A DNA stretch of 64,000 nucleotides. Origin: Afipia birgiae 34632 (GTDB lineage Bacteria > Pseudomonadota > Alphaproteobacteria > Rhizobiales > Xanthobacteraceae). This document shows positions 49,359 to 60,821 of this stretch, one piece after another. Where the stretch lies: positions 932,392 to 996,391 of the forward strand of contig NZ_HG326652.1 of NCBI RefSeq assembly GCF_000308295.2. The letters run 5' to 3'. A program made the translations under genes and the position numbers. The notes under the pieces were generated by a model, which saw only the letters and a list, made by a program, of their open reading frames with translations, was not told the origin of the DNA and ran no database searches. Position 1 is the stretch's first letter, and each line of letters starts with the position of its first letter.

Positions 49359-50769
49359 TACATCTTTCGACGTCGTTGTGATCGGCTCCGGCCCCGGCGG
49401 TTACGTTACCGCGATCCGCGCAGCGCAACTCGGCTTCAAGACTGCCATTGTCGAGAAGGCGTATCTCGGCGGCATCTGCAACAACTGGGGCTGCATTCCG
49501 ACCAAGGCGCTGCTGCGCTCGGCGGAAATCTATCACTACATGAAGCATGCCAAGGACTACGGCCTGTCGGCGGACAATGTGTCGTTCGATCCGAAGGCTG
49601 TGATCGCGCGCTCGCGCGGCGTGGTGAAGCGCCTCAACGGCGGCGTCGAGTACCTGATGAACAAGAACAAGATCACGATCATCTGGGGCGAGGCGACGCT
49701 GGACGGCAGCGGCAAGTTCACGGTGAAGAAAACCGAGGCGGCTGCGCCCAAGGGCGCGCTGGGCGAGGGTGCGTATACCGCCAAGCACATCATTGTCGCC
49801 ACCGGCGCGCGTCCGCGTGTGCTGCCGGGTCTCGAACCCGACAAGAAACTGGTCTGGACCTACTTCGAGGCGATGAACCCGGACAAAATGCCGAAGTCGC
49901 TGCTGGTGGTCGGCTCCGGCGCCATCGGCATCGAGTTCGCGTCGTTCTATCGCACCATGGGCGCGGAGGTGACGGTGGTCGAGGTGTTGCCGCAGATTCT
50001 TCCTGTCGAAGACGCGGAAATCGCCGCGGTCGCGCGCAAACAGTTTGAGAAGCAGGGCATGAAGGTTCTTGCCAACACCAAGGTGACGAAGCTCGACAAG
50101 AAGGCCGACAGCGTCGTCGCCACCATCGACGACGGCAAGAAACCCGTCACGCTGGAAGTCGACCGTGTGATCTCGGCGGTCGGTGTGGTCGGCAATATCG
50201 AAGGCTTCGGGCTTGAGAAGCTCGGCGTGAAGACGGATCGCGGCTGCATCGTCATCGACGGATACGGCAAGACCAACGTGCCCGGCATCTATGCCATCGG
50301 CGACGTCGCCGGTCCTCCGATGCTGGCCCACAAGGCCGAGCATGAAGGCGTGATCTGCGTCGAGGCCATCAAGGGTCTGCATCCGCATCCGATGGACAAG
50401 CTGCTGATCCCGGGCTGCACCTACTGCCATCCGCAGATCGCATCGGTCGGTCTCACCGAGGCGAAGGCGAAGGAAGCGGGCAAGGACGTCCGGGTCGGCC
50501 GCTTCCCGTTCGTTGGCAACGGCAAGGCCATCGCGCAGGGCGAAGACCAGGGCATGGTGAAGGTGATCTTCGACAAGAAGACCGGCCAGCTTCTCGGCGC
50601 GCATATGGTGGGCCACGAGGTCACTGAACTCATCCAGGGCTTCGTCGTGGCGATGAACCTCGAGACGACCGAGGAAGAGCTCTTCCACACCATCTTCCCG
50701 CATCCGACCATCTCGGAAACGATGAAGGAAGCGGTGCTGGATGCCTATGGGCGCGTGCTGAACATGTGA
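49351..50769 (+). CDS. lpdA: Dihydrolipoyl dehydrogenase (PDH E3)
   Basis: E3 reoxidises dihydrolipoyl groups with FAD and NAD+. The 472-residue protein has the FAD motif VVVIGSGPGGYVTAIRAA, redox-active Cys43 and Cys48 in GGICNNWGCIP, the NAD motif VVGSGAIGIEFASFY, and the C-terminal catalytic HTIFPHPTISETMKEA. GGAG lies 7 bases before ATG 49351. It completes the PDH gene set. The last 132 bp recur in diverged form at 51760-51891. Confidence 0.96.
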   Translation: MADTSFDVVVIGSGPGGYVTAIRAAQLGFKTAIVEKAYLGGICNNWGCIPTKALLRSAEIYHYMKHAKDYGLSADNVSFDPKAVIARSRGVVKRLNGGVEYLMNKNKITIIWGEATLDGSGKFTVKKTEAAAPKGALGEGAYTAKHIIVATGARPRVLPGLEPDKKLVWTYFEAMNPDKMPKSLLVVGSGAIGIEFASFYRTMGAEVTVVEVLPQILPVEDAEIAAVARKQFEKQGMKVLANTKVTKLDKKADSVVATIDDGKKPVTLEVDRVISAVGVVGNIEGFGLEKLGVKTDRGCIVIDGYGKTNVPGIYAIGDVAGPPMLAHKAEHEGVICVEAIKGLHPHPMDKLLIPGCTYCHPQIASVGLTEAKAKEAGKDVRVGRFPFVGNGKAIAQGEDQGMVKVIFDKKTGQLLGAHMVGHEVTELIQGFVVAMNLETTEEELFHTIFPHPTISETMKEAVLDAYGRVLNM

Positions 50770-50795
50770 GTGGCGTTGGGAACGCCGCTGTCGCT

Positions 50796-51759: not shown

Positions 51760-51891
51760 GGCTTCGTCGTGGCGATGAACCTCGAGACGACCGCGGAAGA
51801 ACTCTTCCACACCATCTTCCCGCATCCGACCATTTCGGAAACGATGAAGGAAGCGGTGCTCGACGCCAACGGGCGCGTGCTCAATATGTAA
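51760..51891 (+). pseudogene. Fragment of a second lpdA (3' end only)
   Basis: This 132-bp stretch matches the last 132 bp of lpdA (50638-50769) at 122 of 132 positions and ends in its own stop. Most differences are silent; the two amino-acid changes are Glu to Ala and Tyr to Asn. The similarity begins abruptly at GGCTTCGTCG. An open frame from 51655 adds unrelated residues, so no functional protein is expected. It lies beside an insertion sequence. Confidence 0.85.
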
Positions 51892-52024
51892 GGGCAAGCA
51901 CACCAATCGCCGGCCGCAAGTTTGGTTCCTTGCAAAGGGAGCAATAAAGTGGTGCGCCCGGAATTGCAGTTCTGGTATCTTTCTGCCGCCGCACCTGAGA
52001 GCCGGCTCCGCAAATTTGAACAGG

Positions 52025-52084: not shown

Positions 52085-52393
52085 ATGAACAGACGACCGC
52101 GCCGGAACCACACCCCGGCCTTCAAGGCGAAGGTGGCACTTGCCGCCGTCAAGGGTGACCGGACGATAGCCCAACTGGCCGAGCATTTTGACGTCCACCC
52201 CAATCAGATTACCGCCTGGAAGGCCCAGTTGGAGGGCGGTGCTTCCGGAGTTTTCGGATCGGGGAACATGGCGGCGGCCGCGCCTGCTATCGACGTGAAG
52301 TCGCTGCACGCCAAGATCGGGGAGCTGACGCTGGAGAACGATTTTTTAGAAGGAGCGCTCACCAAGGCGGGATTGCTGAGCGCAAAGCGATGA
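52085..52393 (+). CDS. IS3-family transposase OrfA
   Basis: The 102-residue protein is a typical IS3 OrfA: a helix-turn-helix DNA-binding part (RRNHTPAFKAKVALAAVKGD, AQLAEHFDVHPNQITAWKAQ) followed by a leucine-zipper-like helix (LHAKIGELTLENDFLEGAL). GGAGAG precedes the ATG. Its stop overlaps the OrfB ATG (ATGA). IS3 elements often make an OrfAB fusion by -1 frameshift; I see no classic A-rich slippery run here, so reinitiation may operate. Confidence 0.93.
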   Translation: MNRRPRRNHTPAFKAKVALAAVKGDRTIAQLAEHFDVHPNQITAWKAQLEGGASGVFGSGNMAAAAPAIDVKSLHAKIGELTLENDFLEGALTKAGLLSAKR

Positions 52394-53217
52394 TCGACCG
52401 TGAGCACGATCTGTCGATCACCAGGCAGGCTGAGGTTCTGCGGATCAGCCGCGGCAGCGTCTATTACCTGCCGCGTCCGGTGCCGGACGCCGATCTCGCG
52501 ATCATGCAGCGTCTCGATCGGCTGCACCTGGAGTATCCCTTCGCCGGTTCGCGTATGTTGCGAGGCCTGCTGGCTTTGCAGGGGTGCAAGATCGGCCGCC
52601 GGCATGTGAAGACGCTAATGAAGCGGATGGGGATAGAGGCGCTCTATCGCCGTCCGCGCACCACGAAGCCCGAGCCGAGCCACAAGATCTATCCGTATCT
52701 GCTGCGCGGCATGCAGATCACGCGGCCGAACCAGGTCTGGGCGATGGACATCACCTACATCCCGATGGCGCGTGGCTTCGTCTATCTCGCCGTCGTGCTG
52801 GACTGGGCGACCCGCCGGGTTCTGTCCTGGCGGCTGTCGATCACGATGGAGGCGGCCTTCTGCGTAGAGACCCTGGAGGATGCTCTGGCTCGTCACGGCA
52901 AGCCGGAGATATTCAACACGGACCAAGGCTCGCAGTTCACCGGCTCGGCCTTCACCGGCCTGCTCGCCAGCAACGGCATTGCCATCAGCATGGACGGCAA
53001 GGGCGCATGGCGCGACAACGTCTTCGTCGAACGGCTGTGGCGCAGCGTCAAATACGAGGAGGTGTACCTGCGGGCCTACGAAAGCGTCGGCGAGGCGCGC
53101 GACTCGATCGGCCGATACCTCGACTTCTACAATGGTCGCCGACCGCACCAAAGCCTTGACGACGCCACACCCGATCAAGCCTACTTCAACCAGCCGCCAT
53201 TCCGCTTGGCGGCCTAA
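52390..53217 (+). CDS. IS3-family transposase OrfB (DDE integrase domain)
   Basis: The 275-residue protein holds the rve-type catalytic core. Visible acidic residues are Asp in VWAMDITYIPM, Asp in IFNTDQGSQFTG, and Glu in NVFVERLWRSVKYEEVY. The HTH_21 region (FAGSRMLRGLLALQG) and the C-terminal FYNGRRPHQSLDDATP are intact, so the element looks complete and potentially active. No frameshift or internal stop is present. Confidence 0.94.
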   Translation: MIDREHDLSITRQAEVLRISRGSVYYLPRPVPDADLAIMQRLDRLHLEYPFAGSRMLRGLLALQGCKIGRRHVKTLMKRMGIEALYRRPRTTKPEPSHKIYPYLLRGMQITRPNQVWAMDITYIPMARGFVYLAVVLDWATRRVLSWRLSITMEAAFCVETLEDALARHGKPEIFNTDQGSQFTGSAFTGLLASNGIAISMDGKGAWRDNVFVERLWRSVKYEEVYLRAYESVGEARDSIGRYLDFYNGRRPHQSLDDATPDQAYFNQPPFRLAA

Positions 53218-53355: not shown

Positions 53356-55335
53356 ATGCCGATGGACAAGAGAATTGCTTCACTGACCGATGAAGGCCGC
53401 TACAGGCTGCTGGTTGAATCGGTGACCGACTACGCAATATACATGCTTGATCCGAACGGGATTGTCACAAGCTGGAATCCGGGGGCTCAGCGATTCAAGG
53501 GCTATCTGCCGGATGAAATCATCGGGCAGCATTTTTCAAGATTTTACACGCCGGAAGATCAGGCCACGGACCTTCCTGCGAGGGCGCTGCAAACCGCCCG
53601 CACCGAAGGAAAGTTCGAGGCGGAAGGCTGGCGCGTCCGGAAAGACGGAAGCTGCTTCTGGGCTAACGTCATTATTGATCCTATCCGCGCGCAGAATGGC
53701 GAGCTTATCGGCTACGCTAAAATAACGCGCGACCTTACCGAGCGGAAAGCGTCGGAAGAGGCATTGCGCCAAACTCAGGAACAGTTCCGGCTGCTTGTCC
53801 GTGGCGTGACCGACTACGCACTCTATCTGCTGGATACGGACGGGCGCGTCAGCAACTGGAATATCGGCGCCCAGCGCATCAAGGGTTATCTTCCGGAAGA
53901 AGTCATCGGAACCCATTTTTCCCGTTTCTATACGGATGAGGATCGCGAAACAGGCGAGCCGCAAAAGGCGCTCGATACCGTGCGGCGCGAAGGGCGTTTT
54001 GAGAAGGAAGGCTGGCGCCTGCGCAAGGACGGTTCGCGCTTCTGGGCGCATGTCGTCATCGACGCCATCCGCGATGATGACGGTCAGCTCATCGGCTATG
54101 CGAAGATTACCCGCGACATCACCGAGCGGCGCGAGATCGCGCTGAAGCTGGAACAAACCCGCGAAGCCTTACTTCAATCGCAGAAGATGGAAGCCATCGG
54201 CCAGCTCACTGGCGGCATCGCGCATGATTTCAACAATCTGCTCATGGCGATTATGGGCAGCCTTGAGTTGATGCGCAAACGAATGCCTGACGATCCTCGG
54301 CTGATGTCACTGCTGGCGAATGCAGTTCAAGGCGTCGAACGCGGGACGCTGCTCACCAAGCGTATGCTGGCGTTTGCGCGCCGGCAGGAACTGAAACAGG
54401 AAGCCGTCGATGTACCCGAGCTCGTGCGGGGCATGAGCGACTTGATGCGCCGGTCCCTCGGTCCTTCGGTGAACATCGAGACGCGCTTTCCGCTTCAAAT
54501 CCGCCCCGTGCTTGCTGATGCCAACCAATTGGAAATGGCGATTCTCAATCTGTCGGTGAATGCGCGAGACGCGATCGGAGACCGCGGCGACATCATCATC
54601 GGTACGCGCGAAGTCACTGTGGGTGCCGCCGACGATCAGTTGAGCCCGGGCGACTATGTTTGCATTTCCGTGACAGACAACGGGAGCGGCATGGATGAGG
54701 AAACCCTGCGCCGGGCCATGGAGCCGTTCTTTACCACCAAAGGAGTCGGGAAGGGCACGGGACTTGGATTGTCGATGGTGCATGGCCTTGCCGAACAGTC
54801 GGGCGGCCGCTTCAACCTGAAAAGCAAGGTCGGTGAAGGCACGACCGCGGAGCTCTGGCTGCCGGTCGCGGAGCCGGCCTCCGGCAAGGCAAGATCCAAT
54901 CTGAAAGCTGCTTCGCGGGTTGCGACGGCCGAACTGACGATCCTCGCGGTTGATGACGATCCGCTGGTATTGACCAACACGATGGCGATGCTTGAGGACC
55001 TTGGGCATCTCGTCCATTCAGCGAGCTCCGCCAAGGGCGCACTCAAGATTTTGGCGGGATATCCCGACATTGAACTGGTCATCACTGACCAGGCCATGCC
55101 GCAGATGACGGGAGTTCAACTCGCGAAAGCCATCGAGCGGGATTGGCCACACATTCCGGTTCTCATCGCGACAGGCTACGCGGAAATCGAGCCCGGTACT
55201 GCGAACGTTAGGCCGAAACTGGCCAAGCCTTTCACGCAGGCGGAATTGGCCAACGAAATTGCGCGGCTATCGGCTCGTACACGCAAGGCTGGCCGCGTTG
55301 TCAAAGTCCCGCGGACCGAGGCGAAGGACAAGTGA
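53356..55335 (+). CDS. Hybrid sensor histidine kinase with two PAS domains and a receiver
   Basis: The 659-residue soluble kinase has PAS-A (about residues 15-130) and PAS-B (about 140-258), both with FSRFYT and GYAKITRDxTER, then a dimerisation domain with His290 in GGIAHDFNNLLMAI, an ATPase domain (NLSVNARDAIGDRG, TDNGSGM, GKGTGLGLSMV) and a C-terminal receiver with phospho-acceptor Asp578 in VITDQAMPQMTG. No membrane helix is seen, so it senses inside the cell. The PAS repeats are so alike that they look like a recent internal duplication. No separate regulator gene is adjacent. Confidence 0.92.
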   Translation: MPMDKRIASLTDEGRYRLLVESVTDYAIYMLDPNGIVTSWNPGAQRFKGYLPDEIIGQHFSRFYTPEDQATDLPARALQTARTEGKFEAEGWRVRKDGSCFWANVIIDPIRAQNGELIGYAKITRDLTERKASEEALRQTQEQFRLLVRGVTDYALYLLDTDGRVSNWNIGAQRIKGYLPEEVIGTHFSRFYTDEDRETGEPQKALDTVRREGRFEKEGWRLRKDGSRFWAHVVIDAIRDDDGQLIGYAKITRDITERREIALKLEQTREALLQSQKMEAIGQLTGGIAHDFNNLLMAIMGSLELMRKRMPDDPRLMSLLANAVQGVERGTLLTKRMLAFARRQELKQEAVDVPELVRGMSDLMRRSLGPSVNIETRFPLQIRPVLADANQLEMAILNLSVNARDAIGDRGDIIIGTREVTVGAADDQLSPGDYVCISVTDNGSGMDEETLRRAMEPFFTTKGVGKGTGLGLSMVHGLAEQSGGRFNLKSKVGEGTTAELWLPVAEPASGKARSNLKAASRVATAELTILAVDDDPLVLTNTMAMLEDLGHLVHSASSAKGALKILAGYPDIELVITDQAMPQMTGVQLAKAIERDWPHIPVLIATGYAEIEPGTANVRPKLAKPFTQAELANEIARLSARTRKAGRVVKVPRTEAKDK

Positions 55336-55801: not shown

Positions 55802-55869
55802 CGCGGCATCGTTGCCGCGGCGCAACGGATGTTGCGTGCCTACAACACTTCGTGAACATTTAACCGTCG
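55802..55869. repeat. 68-bp double-hairpin repeat, copy 1
   Basis: Identical at 66 of 68 positions to 60595-60662. It contains two adjacent short stems: CGCGGCA-TCGT-TGCCGCG and GCGCAAC-GGAT-GTTGCGT (last pair broken in this copy), followed by TTCGTGAACATTTAACCGTC. Weaker similarity extends about 25 bp to the left in both copies. Copies are direct repeats 4.8 kb apart. Confidence 0.88.
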
Positions 55870-55968
55870 TCGCAGGCGCACAAGAAGAAGGCGAAGAAAT
55901 CCAAAGCCAAGAAAGCCGCGCCAGCGAGCGCAACACCAGCGCAGACGGCGCCGAAGAGTTCCTGTTAG
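55864..55968 (+). pseudogene. C-terminal remnant of a Lys/Ala-rich protein
   Basis: A 34-codon open stretch directly after a TAA encodes a basic tail (HKKKAKKSKAKKAAPASATP and onward to SSC) and ends at TAG 55966-55968. There is no start codon in frame. It is followed by a good terminator (55996-56024), so it looks like the 3' end of a gene whose 5' part was lost. Parent family not recognised. Confidence 0.5.
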
Positions 55969-56404: not shown

Positions 56405-56527
56405 AGGCGAAGCAACCGGACCATTCAAATCTCTGATGACTGCACAACCGAGGGAGATTCCCGCGGCAGGAGATGTTTGTCCGCTGATGGCGATGTGCAT
56501 TCAACCCAAGTCAAAAAGGAGGAAACG

Positions 56528-56761
56528 ATGGAATATCTCTACGTCGGCCGTAACGAGCTCGTTGCCCTTGTCGTTGGGCTTGTCACCGGATTCCTGTACT
56601 CGCTGCTCAACCTGCCGATCCCGGCACCGAATGTGCTCGGCGGCATTCTCGCGATCATCTTCACCTTCGCCGGCTACGTGATCGTGAAGCTCATTCGCAA
56701 GCAGATCACGTTCGGCCGGCCTGAATCCTCCGAAGCGAAACCGCTTCGGGTCGAAGTCTAA
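56528..56761 (+). CDS. XapX (DUF1427) family membrane protein 1
   Basis: The 77-residue protein has two membrane helices flanking the XapX hallmark LPIPAPNVLGGILAI, then FTFAGYVIVKLIRKQ and a polar C-terminal tail of about 20 residues. XapX-domain proteins are small membrane proteins of unknown biochemical role. A perfect AGGAGG lies just before the ATG. It is followed 28 bp later by a paralog and then by an acetamidase/formamidase gene, so an amide-related membrane role is an inference from context. Confidence 0.85.
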   Translation: MEYLYVGRNELVALVVGLVTGFLYSLLNLPIPAPNVLGGILAIIFTFAGYVIVKLIRKQITFGRPESSEAKPLRVEV

Positions 56762-56789
56762 AGCATCAAAAAAATCAGGAGGAACGAAC

Positions 56790-56984
56790 ATGGTTCAGAT
56801 CAGTCTTGGTCTCATCGAACTACAGGCCGCCATCGTCGGTCTCATCACCGGCGTTCTCTACACGGCAGTGAATGCGCCGATCCCCGCGCCAAATGTTCTG
56901 GGCGGCATTTTCGCCATCGTCGGTACGTTCGTCGGCTATGTCGCCGTCGCCGCGCTTCGCCATCAAGTGACTTTCGTATTTTGA
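56790..56984 (+). CDS. XapX (DUF1427) family membrane protein 2
   Basis: The 64-residue paralog of the preceding product shares about 60 percent of residues in the core (APIPAPNVLGGIFAIVGTF against the same motif) but lacks the polar tail. Two membrane helices are predicted. AGGAGG precedes the ATG. Its stop is 20 bp before the fmdA ATG. Tandem unequal pairs of tiny membrane proteins often work as hetero-oligomers, which is worth testing here. Confidence 0.85.
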   Translation: MVQISLGLIELQAAIVGLITGVLYTAVNAPIPAPNVLGGIFAIVGTFVGYVAVAALRHQVTFVF

Positions 56985-57004: not shown

Positions 57005-58060
57005 ATGCTCAAGTCCATGATCAAAGGCACGACCGGACCGCAGCTTCACGATTTGAAGGCTACTCTCGAAACCATTCAGTGGGGCGCGTTCGACGGTTCG
57101 GTCGACCCGGTCCTTCACGTCAACTCCGGCGACATCGTGAAGATCGAATGCCTTGCTCACCATGCCGGCGATGCGCCGGATCTGCTGATGGATGATGTGA
57201 TCCGCGAAATTTACGAGACGGTGCCGCCGGAGAGCCGTACGCCTGGCGTCCATATCCTCACCGGCCCGATCTATGTCGAAGGCGCCGAGCCGGGCGATAC
57301 GCTGGAATGTCGCGTGCTGCACATGGAGCCGCGCCTCAAGTACGGTGTCAACTTCATCGCAAGCTGGGGTCTTCTGCACGAAGAATTTGGCCGGAAAGAA
57401 CACGTCATCATCTATGAGGCGGACGTTGAATCCCAGCTCGCCCGCGCTGTGTTCAAGTACGAATACGACACGCCCGAGAAGTCGTATCCGGGCATGATCA
57501 CGCCTGTCGATCATGCCAAGCGCAAGCCGGCACTCGAGAACGTCGTCGTTCCGCTCCGCCTGCACTTCGGCACTGCGGGTGTTTGTCCGGCGGCCGAGGG
57601 CAAGATCAGCACTGTGCCTCCGGGTGTGCACGGCGGCAACGTCGACAACCGCGAGTTCATCGCCGGCACCAGCATGTTCTACCCGGTGCATCGTGAAGGC
57701 GCGTTGTTCTGGGCTGGCGATACTCATTTTGCCGAAGGTGATGGCGAAGTGAACGGCACCGCCATCGAAGCGCACGTCAATGCCACCATCCAGCTCATCC
57801 TGCACAAGGGCGGCGCGGGCAAGAACCCGGTGTTGGAAACGCCGCGCGAGTGGATCTGCCACGGGTTCAGCGAGGACCTCGACGAAGCTGTCCGCGAGTG
57901 CGTTCTGGAGACCATTGGTCTGCTGCAGCGCAAATGGGGCATCACGCGCGAGGAAGCCTACTCGATCTGCAGCGTTGCTGGCGATCTGCGCGTCACCCAG
58001 GTGGTCGACGGCGTCAAGGGCGCACACATGGCGGTGCGCCGCGATCTGCGCCGACCGTAA
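57005..58060 (+). CDS. fmdA: Acetamidase/formamidase family protein
   Basis: FmdA-family enzymes hydrolyse formamide or acetamide to ammonia and the acid. The 351-residue protein has HVNSGDIVKIECLAHHAGD near the N-terminus, VHILTGPIYVEGAEPGDTLE, VPPGVHGGNVDNREF, and the metal/active-site motif GDTHFAEGDGEVNGTAIE at residues 238-255. ATG 57005 has AAGGAG 10 bases upstream; TTG 56981 is rejected. A strong terminator follows 20 bp after the stop. Exact substrate is not readable from sequence. Confidence 0.88.
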   Translation: MLKSMIKGTTGPQLHDLKATLETIQWGAFDGSVDPVLHVNSGDIVKIECLAHHAGDAPDLLMDDVIREIYETVPPESRTPGVHILTGPIYVEGAEPGDTLECRVLHMEPRLKYGVNFIASWGLLHEEFGRKEHVIIYEADVESQLARAVFKYEYDTPEKSYPGMITPVDHAKRKPALENVVVPLRLHFGTAGVCPAAEGKISTVPPGVHGGNVDNREFIAGTSMFYPVHREGALFWAGDTHFAEGDGEVNGTAIEAHVNATIQLILHKGGAGKNPVLETPREWICHGFSEDLDEAVRECVLETIGLLQRKWGITREEAYSICSVAGDLRVTQVVDGVKGAHMAVRRDLRRP

Positions 58061-58080: not shown

Positions 58081-58112
58081 GGGGAGGAAATACATTTCCT
58101 CCCCCTTTTTTT
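58081..58112 (+). terminator. Rho-independent terminator after fmdA
   Basis: Perfect 10-bp stem GGGGAGGAAA / TTTCCTCCCC with a TACA loop, followed by C and seven T. It ends the XapX-XapX-fmdA transcript, so the downstream fusion gene needs its own promoter in 58113-58265. Confidence 0.93.
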
Positions 58113-58265
58113 GGATTCCGGAATGATCCGTTTGTGCGTTGCATTCTGCCAGGACGGGATATCGCAGACGGAATGATGCACAGCGGATCGGCCTCGCCTA
58201 ATCATTGGTTTGAGAAAGGGCGCAGAGTTGTCATAGTTGTCGGTTCGGGCGATGGAGGAGACGCC

Positions 58266-60557
58266 GTGCAGTCATGGCACTTCGCAAGCGATGACTATCC
58301 ATCCACGCTGCGCGAAACCGCGTGGCGGGCTGCGATCGAGCGCGCCGGGCTGTCTACGGAAATCGGCCCGGATGAGCTGCGGGCTTATTCCCATCATCGT
58401 CTTTCGCCGCTCGGCGGATCATTTTCGGTGGTCGCCGCCAGATCACAGCGTTTCCATTCGCTCGGGCAGGGCGACGGCGCGATGCTCGTCGTCCTTCATC
58501 TTGAAGGCAAAGGCCTCCTCAATAACGATCAGCAGGCCCACGCGTTGGCGGTCGGAGATTTCGCCATTTTTCCCGAGGGCGTGGATTTCGATCTTGTTTG
58601 CGACGGGCCGTTCCGCCAGGTCTGGCTGCGTCTGCCGAGCGTTGCGTTCAGCCGGCGGATGCTGCCGCCTCAAGCCTTCAGGGTGCGCCCGATCGCGGGC
58701 GATAGCGGATTAGGCCACGTGCTGTCGCAGCTTTTGCGCTCAGTCTCGGATTCCCTGCAGGAACTGGATGACGATGAGCTATCGGCGATCGAGATCGCGA
58801 TCTCCGATCTGATTGTTGCCACGTTCAATCGGCAGGGCGACGGCGGGACCTCGTCAAATCAAGCGACGATCCTTCATCGCATCTGTCAGTTCATCGAGAC
58901 GCGGCTGGGCGACACTAATCTAAGCCTTGCCGAAGTCGCGCGGGCGCAGCGTGTCTCTCCGCGCTATCTTCAGAAACTGTTCGAGTCGGCGGACGGTAAT
59001 TTCACGCGCTATATCCGCGAGCGGCGTCTTGAGCGCTGCCGCGCCGAGCTTGCCAAATCTGATGACGATGCCACGTCGGTGTCAAGCATCGCCTTTCGTT
59101 GGGGATTTACCGACGCTGCGCATTTCAGCCGCGTGTTTCGCGACAAGTATGGGATGTCGCCGCGCGACTATCGCCTCAACATCCGCAAGATCGAGAGTAG
59201 CGCAGCGGAGGCTTTGCATCGTGGCCGGCCGCCGCGCGCGTCGGAAAGCAGTAAGGCGGAGGCGCCGCCGCTGGTTGCATCCGATGGATCGGTGGCGGTG
59301 GAGGCGGGCAGCCAGACCCACTACATTCCGGCCAACGCCAAGACGGTGCATTGGGGCTATTTCAGCCAAAACCTGGCGCCGGTTGCAGTGGTCAACTCCG
59401 GCGATACGGTAACAGTCGAGACGTTGACCCAGCATGCCTCAGACGATCTTGAGAAGATGGTCGTCGGCGATCCCGGTGCGGAAAGTGTTTTCCGTTGGAC
59501 CAAGGACGACAAGGCCGTGGACCGGCGCGGCGCCGGTCCGATGGATGCCTCGATCTACGGGCGCGGAGCGGGCGAGGGGTTTGGCGTCCACATCATGACC
59601 GGGCCTATCGCGGTCATGGGGGCGATGCCCGGCGATGTGGTCGAGATCGGCATTCGCGACATCCTGCCCCGGCGCAGCGCAAATCCTGATTTCGCCGGTC
59701 GCTGCTTTGGCTCCAACGCCGCTGCATGGTGGGGGCTGCACTATCAGGAACTCATGACCGAGCCCAAGCAGCGTGAGGTCGTAACCATCTACGAGTGCAT
59801 GCTCGACGCCGCACCGCCGTTCGCCAAGGCGCTCTACAGTTTCCGCTGGACGCCGCAGACGGATCCGTTCGGTCGGGTGCATCCGACCATCGACTATCCG
59901 GGTATCCCGGTGGACCATGCGACGATCGACAAGGTTCACGGCATTCTCGATGGTGTCACTATTCCGCTGCGCCCGCATTTCGGCGTGATCGGCTGTGCGC
60001 CGCGCGAGGCGGGGCTGATCGATTCCGTGCCGCCAGCCTACTTCGGCGGCAATCTCGACAACTGGCGGATGGCCAAGGGCGCGAAGGTTTTTCTGCCGGT
60101 TTCGGTACCGGGCGCGCTGATTTCGGTTGGCGACCCGCATGCGACGCAGGGCGATTCCGAACTCAACGGCACCGCGATCGAATGTTCGCTCACCGGCGTG
60201 TTCGACATCGTGCTGCACAAGAAGGCCCGCCTTGGCGGAAGTCCATTGGCCGACCTCGCTTATCCGCTGATCGAGACCGAGACCGAATGGATACTGTTCG
60301 GCTTCAGCCACCCCGATTACCTGGCTGAATTGGGTGCGAAGGCACAGAGCGCCGTTTACCGTTCGTCGTCGCTTGATCTTGCGATGAAGGACGCCTTCCG
60401 GAAGGTTCGGCGCTTCCTGATGGTGACCCGCGGCTTGTCTGAAGACGAGGCGATCACCTTGATCTCGGTGGCGGTCGATTTCGGCGTCTCGCAGGTGGTT
60501 GACGGCAACTGGGCGGTGCACGCCATCCTTCCCAAGAGCTTGTTCGGGCCGGGGTAG
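58266..60557 (+). CDS. AraC-type regulator fused to an acetamidase/formamidase domain
   Basis: One uninterrupted frame encodes 763 residues. Residues about 1-200 are an AraC sensor domain (LAVGDFAIFPEGVDFDLV near residue 96). Residues about 205-303 are the AraC DNA-binding domain with both helix-turn-helices (SLAEVARAQRVSPRYLQKLF and SIAFRWGFTDAAHFSRVF, then YGMSPRDYR). A Pro/Ala/Ser-rich linker (about 304-347) leads to a full FmdA-like domain with VHIMTGPIAVMGAMPGDVVE, PPAYFGGNLDNWR and GDPHATQGDSELNGTAIE at 622-639. GTG 58266 follows GGAGGAG; the frame continues upstream across the fmdA terminator, which is rejected. It may regulate, and act on or sense, small amides. Confidence 0.85.
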   Translation: MQSWHFASDDYPSTLRETAWRAAIERAGLSTEIGPDELRAYSHHRLSPLGGSFSVVAARSQRFHSLGQGDGAMLVVLHLEGKGLLNNDQQAHALAVGDFAIFPEGVDFDLVCDGPFRQVWLRLPSVAFSRRMLPPQAFRVRPIAGDSGLGHVLSQLLRSVSDSLQELDDDELSAIEIAISDLIVATFNRQGDGGTSSNQATILHRICQFIETRLGDTNLSLAEVARAQRVSPRYLQKLFESADGNFTRYIRERRLERCRAELAKSDDDATSVSSIAFRWGFTDAAHFSRVFRDKYGMSPRDYRLNIRKIESSAAEALHRGRPPRASESSKAEAPPLVASDGSVAVEAGSQTHYIPANAKTVHWGYFSQNLAPVAVVNSGDTVTVETLTQHASDDLEKMVVGDPGAESVFRWTKDDKAVDRRGAGPMDASIYGRGAGEGFGVHIMTGPIAVMGAMPGDVVEIGIRDILPRRSANPDFAGRCFGSNAAAWWGLHYQELMTEPKQREVVTIYECMLDAAPPFAKALYSFRWTPQTDPFGRVHPTIDYPGIPVDHATIDKVHGILDGVTIPLRPHFGVIGCAPREAGLIDSVPPAYFGGNLDNWRMAKGAKVFLPVSVPGALISVGDPHATQGDSELNGTAIECSLTGVFDIVLHKKARLGGSPLADLAYPLIETETEWILFGFSHPDYLAELGAKAQSAVYRSSSLDLAMKDAFRKVRRFLMVTRGLSEDEAITLISVAVDFGVSQVVDGNWAVHAILPKSLFGPG

Positions 60558-60594: not shown

Positions 60595-60662
60595 CGCGGC
60601 ATCGTTGCCGCGGCGCAACGGATGTTGCGCGTCTACAACACTTCGTGAACATTTAACCGTCG
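60595..60662. repeat. 68-bp double-hairpin repeat, copy 2
   Basis: Direct repeat of 55802-55869 with two differences. Here the second stem is fully paired (GCGCAAC-GGAT-GTTGCGC). It starts 38 bp after the fusion gene stop and lies 160 bp before ilvD. The sequence after the repeat does not match the Lys/Ala-rich remnant behind copy 1. Confidence 0.88.
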
Positions 60663-60821
60663 CCCCAGCAAGCGCTTGCGCGCGCCGCGATTTAGCCACA
60701 CGCCTCCATGAGATCATTGTTCGTAGGCTAAACGCCACGGCCTTTGCGAAGGTGTTGGAAAAACCTCCCATTTTCAGGGGTTTTCTGGATCTCACGGAGT
60801 GGCCGCGGGACAGGGTTCACG

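Follow-up and report, generated by a model that had tools for sequence, protein, structure and literature searches.

A single gene of Afipia birgiae 34632 joins an AraC-type transcription factor in frame to a complete acetamidase/formamidase (FmdA) domain, within a 64,000-nucleotide stretch of DNA analysed here (the window). With a confidence somewhat better than even, we consider this fusion to be a transcription factor that governs amide use and has taken over an FmdA-type amidase to bind its effector; the captured domain would switch the AraC part via the linker. A broader proposal, put forward tentatively and at slightly less than even confidence, is that the fusion belongs to an undescribed large family of AraC regulators that respond to amides and carry, as effector domain, a relative of the enzyme under control. 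This family would preserve a record of an enzyme becoming a sensor—that is, one ancient fusion, a basal group with the full enzyme motif, a majority with a fixed change of His389 to Gln, and an RGxP motif born with the fusion and coupling its halves.

Architecture, distribution, and ancestry of the fusion

A preliminary description of this DNA had proposed one open frame containing an AraC sensor domain, two HTHs, a linker, and an FmdA domain that keeps the family motif, with a stand-alone fmdA upstream; domain profiles and homologues bear out this arrangement, including the motif and the upstream gene (Table 1). HTH_18 scored 73.2 bits (cut-off, 33.6), marking the AraC-type two-HTH domain, and AraC_binding_2 scored 44.6 bits (cut-off, 27), marking a cupin-type N-terminal sensor/dimerisation domain, which is also matched by the sensor domains of AraC and BgaR. 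Pfam PF03069 (FmdA_AmdA) was above its cut-off and covered the whole fold. Two NCBIfam equivalog models fell below their cut-offs, namely FeaR for the AraC part (135.2 bits; cut-off, 199) and FormamaseFmdA (NF045496; 52.9 bits; cut-off, 500).

Table 1. Features of the fusion gene and its surroundings (window coordinates).
Feature	Position	Strand	Remark
TCAAATCTCTGAT, candidate half-site upstream of xapX-fmdA genes	56425..56437	+	pattern picked after viewing sites; lead only
XapX-domain small membrane protein, copy 1	56528..56761	+	
XapX-domain small membrane protein, copy 2	56790..56984	+	
Stand-alone FmdA, short subfamily	57005..58060	+	351 aa
Terminator-like hairpin then T run, between fmdA and fusion	58081..58104	+	-21 kcal/mol, z -2.8
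TCAAACCAATGAT, candidate half-site; overlaps promoter-like site of fusion	58201..58213	-	pattern picked after viewing sites; lead only
Promoter-like TTGAGA-16-CATAGT ahead of fusion	58210..58237	+	1 found vs 1.4 expected in shuffles
AraC-FmdA fusion gene	58266..60557	+	763 aa, GTG start
AraC N-terminal sensor/dimerisation domain (AraC_binding_2), residues 1-195	58266..58850	+	AraC, BgaR, ToxT-like matches
AraC DNA-binding domain, two HTHs, residues 196-304	58851..59177	+	profile and model/family matches
Linker, residues 305-345	59178..59300	+	disordered from 312 in predicted model; protein's highest dN/dS
RGxP motif (RGRP), residues 319-322	59220..59231	+	invariant in fusions
FmdA (acetamidase/formamidase) domain, 3b9t subfamily, residues 346-763	59301..60554	+	
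Gln389 codon	59430..59432	+	His in 33/33 compared stand-alone relatives
GDPHATQGDSELNGTAIE family motif, residues 622-639	60129..60182	+	

An artefact or chance read-through was ruled out, since the frame is kept in three orthologues, 89–91% identical to the window's fusion, and in 120 of 120 homologues among the matches listed. The linker, in which a stop or frameshift was looked for, contains neither. Nor are the homologues always two separate genes: a protein search with precomputed Pfam lists gave 3,023 matches above threshold, and the 120 of them listed all carry both HTH and FmdA domains. Many homologues bear the source name "acetamidase/formamidase/AraC-like DNA-binding protein," and the architecture is therefore already known to databases; no description of an AraC-FmdA protein in print was found in a search limited to open-licence literature. 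The family is widespread, and apparently unstudied. Whole-genome samples contained a full-length fusion in 5 of 61 relatives, 4 of 385 members of the class, and 8 of 398 of the phylum, with the window's own genome included each time. For a sample of the genus of genome G421, a count of the rows gave 89 of 195 (76 at 51–55% identity and 11 at 46–48%), a figure that includes one cut fusion and one partial at 50% identity.

Among 75 FmdA domains placed in a tree, all 42 that are fused group as one clade (support, 100/99), apart from a clade holding 13 of the 14 cytoplasmic enzymes (100/100); the fused domain is therefore no recent copy of the enzyme encoded next door. Tat-type rows, possibly ancestral to the fusion, adjoin the fused clade with a support of 88/97, not starred, in this tree of unknown root. 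The fusion label also changes once in a larger, more quickly built tree (171 rows), and the simplest account would be a single old fusion that spread between Alpha- and Betaproteobacteria. Relatives consisting of AraC alone are at most 41% identical over almost the entire AraC part, and the mapped surroundings of one of them (L102) lack FmdA and contain genes of the SDR, amidohydrolase, and MFS types. A plasmid copy of the fusion in Rhizobium johnstonii (L031, 8379–10788) is annotated as a hypothetical protein and an acetamidase/formamidase family protein of shorter length; the AraC half is read in a different frame, which probably makes this a broken copy.

Within the linker, all 120 fusions among the matches listed share R319, G320, and P322, although the remainder barely aligns. 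The RGxP motif is likewise present in all 22 locus fusions, is absent ahead of the FmdA domain in all 29 stand-alone enzymes, and is absent in 28 of 34 AraC-like relatives without a full FmdA domain. The other six, of 401–471 aa and with fusion-like tails, are probably cut fusions. The motif thus seems to have arrived together with the fusion, and may couple the AraC and FmdA halves.

Gene neighbourhood and candidate operators

Gene context supports the earlier suggestion of a regulator of amide use. A stand-alone FmdA gene adjoins the fusion in 23 of 27 mapped loci (22 and five more), several of which are close relatives, so these counts do not represent independent events. Thirteen loci have a stand-alone FmdA of ~413 aa in or beside an SBP/ABC/FmdA operon with an amino-acid-type ABC importer (10 in line, two tail to tail, and one on the divergent side), six have the fusion divergent from a Tat-type FmdA, and four, the window among them, have a short FmdA preceding the fusion. 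No FmdA is adjacent in L069, L067, L023, and L028; the contig of L023 ends immediately upstream of the fusion, and an FmdA lies 6.7 kb off in L028. Among the fusions sampled from the genus of G421, each of the 12 in the 46–50% group has a Tat-type FmdA in divergent orientation on its contig. Genomes without an adjacent fusion also commonly encode Tat-exported enzymes of the 3b9t FmdA subfamily (L070–L082).

A RidA gene lies in the vicinity of the rhizobial copies of the fusion. In Caballeronia zhejiangensis (L024, 1263–3007), genes for nitrile hydratase and for CbtA/CbtB cobalt transport were found near the fusion and an amidase operon, a gene set that possibly encodes a nitrile-to-amide-to-acid pathway. 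Together, the ABC importer, FmdA, nitrile hydratase, and RidA neighbours suggest amide uptake and hydrolysis, and the amide handled by these loci is perhaps made from a nitrile.

At the window's locus, the promoter-like stretch before the fusion is kept in three relatives, and this conservation, together with the terminator-like hairpin, indicates that the fusion probably has a transcript of its own. The order XapX, XapX, fmdA, fusion is identical in genome G010, and genome G008 retains the fusion and lacks the xapX-fmdA segment. DUF1427, to which the window's two XapX proteins before fmdA (56528–56984) are related, is given in a 2005 survey as limited to plant-associated proteobacteria (PMC554113). 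These two proteins may have a part in amide uptake or efflux. DNA at 51.9–56.1 kb of the window is missing from G010, and that at 51.9–58.2 kb from G008; the window's genome therefore has additional DNA there, which includes transposase-like open reading frames (52085–53217) and a PAS/histidine-kinase-like one (53356–55335). Two pairs of direct repeats were also observed, the first of 134 bp (50638–50771 and 51760–51893; 92.5% identical) and the second of 73 bp (55803–55876 and 60596–60668; 95% identical). The latter brackets the xapX-xapX-fmdA-fusion block, has only these two copies genome-wide, and is found downstream of the fusion in relatives. Rfam gave zero matches in the window.

Exact matches to TCAAAYCNNTGAT occur in the window at 56425 and 58201 only, with eight in the whole genome, and these candidate half-sites are a lead only, the pattern having been picked after the sites were viewed. 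In other genomes, 18 of 20 regions upstream of the SBP gene score at least 14/18 against CCAATTTTTTGTACGCCC, and conserved blocks also occur in the fusion/Tat-FmdA intergenic region (11 aligned); all of these regions belong to a single genus, and common ancestry therefore accounts for part of the conservation. The window contains no CCAATTTTTTGTACGCCC site, where 1.26 would be expected, whereas TTTTTGTGCAGCC, when three or fewer mismatches are allowed, has 20 (13.7 expected), none of them upstream of the xapX-fmdA or fusion genes.

State of the fused FmdA domain and its proposed working

In the proposed mechanism, the AraC part would dimerise and attach to DNA ahead of the amidase genes next door and, probably, of the fusion's own gene. 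The FmdA domain would bind the amide used by the adjacent amidase and, through the linker, shift the AraC part to activation of the amidase genes, its own amide hydrolysis being weakened or lost in most members, including the window's. We infer amide binding, activation, the target promoter, and the loss of activity from the conservation and context described here; the AraC part's own sensor domain could instead be where the effector truly binds.

Over the 120 fusions listed, conservation is highest in the FmdA part, where 114 of 418 sites are invariant; the sensor has 2 invariant sites of 195, the HTH part 12 of 109, and the linker 3 of 41. N596, D598, D623, H625, D630, E632, and E639 are invariant in all 120 fusions among the matches listed; the GGNxD and GDxHxxxGDxE core is kept in the window's fusion, and all these residues except E639 were noted in solved relatives as well. 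Furthermore, both enzyme groups share 163 conserved sites, 128 of which persist in at least 90% of 142 fusion rows (the 120 homologues listed and 22 loci, the window's own protein being counted in both). The FmdA part is under purifying selection: its dN/dS is 0.056–0.078 against orthologues of the window's protein, near that of the stand-alone fmdA (0.064), and 0.072–0.109 in a Bradyrhizobium-type set, in which the partner enzyme has 0.03–0.061. The intact core residues count against a loss of hydrolysis.

Position 389 gives a different picture. It is His in 33 of 33 stand-alone relatives compared (all 14 cytoplasmic, all 15 Tat-type, and all 4 short enzymes) and Gln in 118 of the 142 fusion rows, the remaining 24 having His. 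The conserved histidine is thus lost in most fusions, including the window's, in which the HH motif (389–390) of 3b9t-like stand-alone relatives reads QH. In the 75-domain tree, the seven His389 rows group as a basal clade next to the other 35; at least three changes of this residue are required in the 171-row tree, and one His row (P0104) lies within the Gln group, so the change from His389 to Gln, with 24 His rows, has not been one-way. Position 610 is Tyr in 28 of 29 cytoplasmic and Tat-type enzymes (Phe in one) and Leu in all 142 fusion rows. Gln389 may amount to the loss of a catalytic or metal residue. Catalytic residues for the FmdA family were not found in the open-licence literature; the mechanism of the FmdA-like 2WKN enzyme is said to have stayed elusive (PMC5353710), and the enzyme is described as related to a bi-zinc formamidase (PMC4602302).

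These observations bear on the earlier statement that the FmdA domain may sense or destroy the inducer. Sensing is favoured over destruction: the core motif is kept, but His389 has given way to Gln in most fusion rows. A self-limiting trigger enzyme, in which an active FmdA domain destroys the inducer and the sensing takes place either in the AraC sensor domain or, while the enzyme turns over, in the FmdA site, is nevertheless the strongest alternative, unlikely though far from negligible. The invariant core, the retained enzyme sites, the dN/dS close to that of stand-alone fmdA, and the 24 His389 rows speak for it, whereas Gln389 in the majority, against a uniform His in stand-alone relatives, and the replacement of Tyr610 by Leu in every fusion row speak against it, and a low-abundance regulator would presumably contribute little beside an adjacent amidase.

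Still less probable is partner sensing, by which the FmdA domain would enter mixed oligomers with the stand-alone FmdA, whose amount or ligand state would control the regulator. The linker would permit such oligomers in the predicted model, and the neighbouring FmdA is usually of the same subfamily (~55–61% identical to the fused domain); however, in four mapped loci, the window's included, the neighbour is a distant short FmdA (~32–38%). A bifunctional enzyme of the PutA kind, serving as the main amidase in some genomes and repressing or activating its own gene, is very improbable: G008 (L069) and L067 do have the fusion without an adjacent FmdA, but a separate FmdA adjoins it in 23 of the 27 loci, Gln389 predominates, and G008 has a Tat-type FmdA elsewhere.

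Should the preferred reading of a captured, effector-binding amidase be correct, it would give a function to many proteins named only "acetamidase/formamidase family protein," a name that would mislead counts of amidases, and would offer a ready source of amide biosensors.

Comparison with known systems

The best NCBIfam match of the fusion's AraC part is FeaR, of the AraC/XylS family, whose model spans that part only. CdhR and GbdR combine an AraC DNA-binding domain with an enzyme-derived sensor like DJ-1/PfpI or GATase-1. In these regulators the enzyme-like domain takes the place of the cupin sensor, whereas the fusion has both, with the enzyme part after the HTH domain. The FmdA part has the fold of 3b9t, a Tat-signal FmdA-like protein of Methylobacillus flagellatus, and is ~60% identical to it; unlike the fusion, 3b9t is stand-alone, exported, and has the HH motif.

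As in the fusion, a linker in the MocR/GabR regulators joins a DNA-binding domain (GntR-type HTH) to a large enzyme-derived domain (aminotransferase-like), which binds the pathway's substrate as effector (PMC6917764). The fusion differs in its AraC-type DNA binding, its extra sensor-like domain, and its C-terminal FmdA in place of a PLP enzyme, and its effector role is putative. The closest precedent in print, with an enzyme domain turned effector-binding as proposed here, is BzdR, which consists of an HTH-XRE and a shikimate-kinase-like domain. Loss of enzyme activity is described there as important for the in-vivo response, and a laboratory chimera with an active enzyme domain gave no response in vivo, whereas an inactive one responded (PMC3602430). 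The Gln389 majority fits this picture, and the basal His389 group would be a natural earlier stage. Thus, if the proposal holds, an amidase joins the short list of enzymes turned effector domains, and natural intermediates become available for a transition until now rebuilt in the laboratory (PMC3602430). BzdR-like intermediates were laboratory-built, whereas natural fusion members with and without His389 coexist. Overall, regulators with an effector domain derived from an enzyme are known; the combination with a second sensor domain and with natural intermediates is new.
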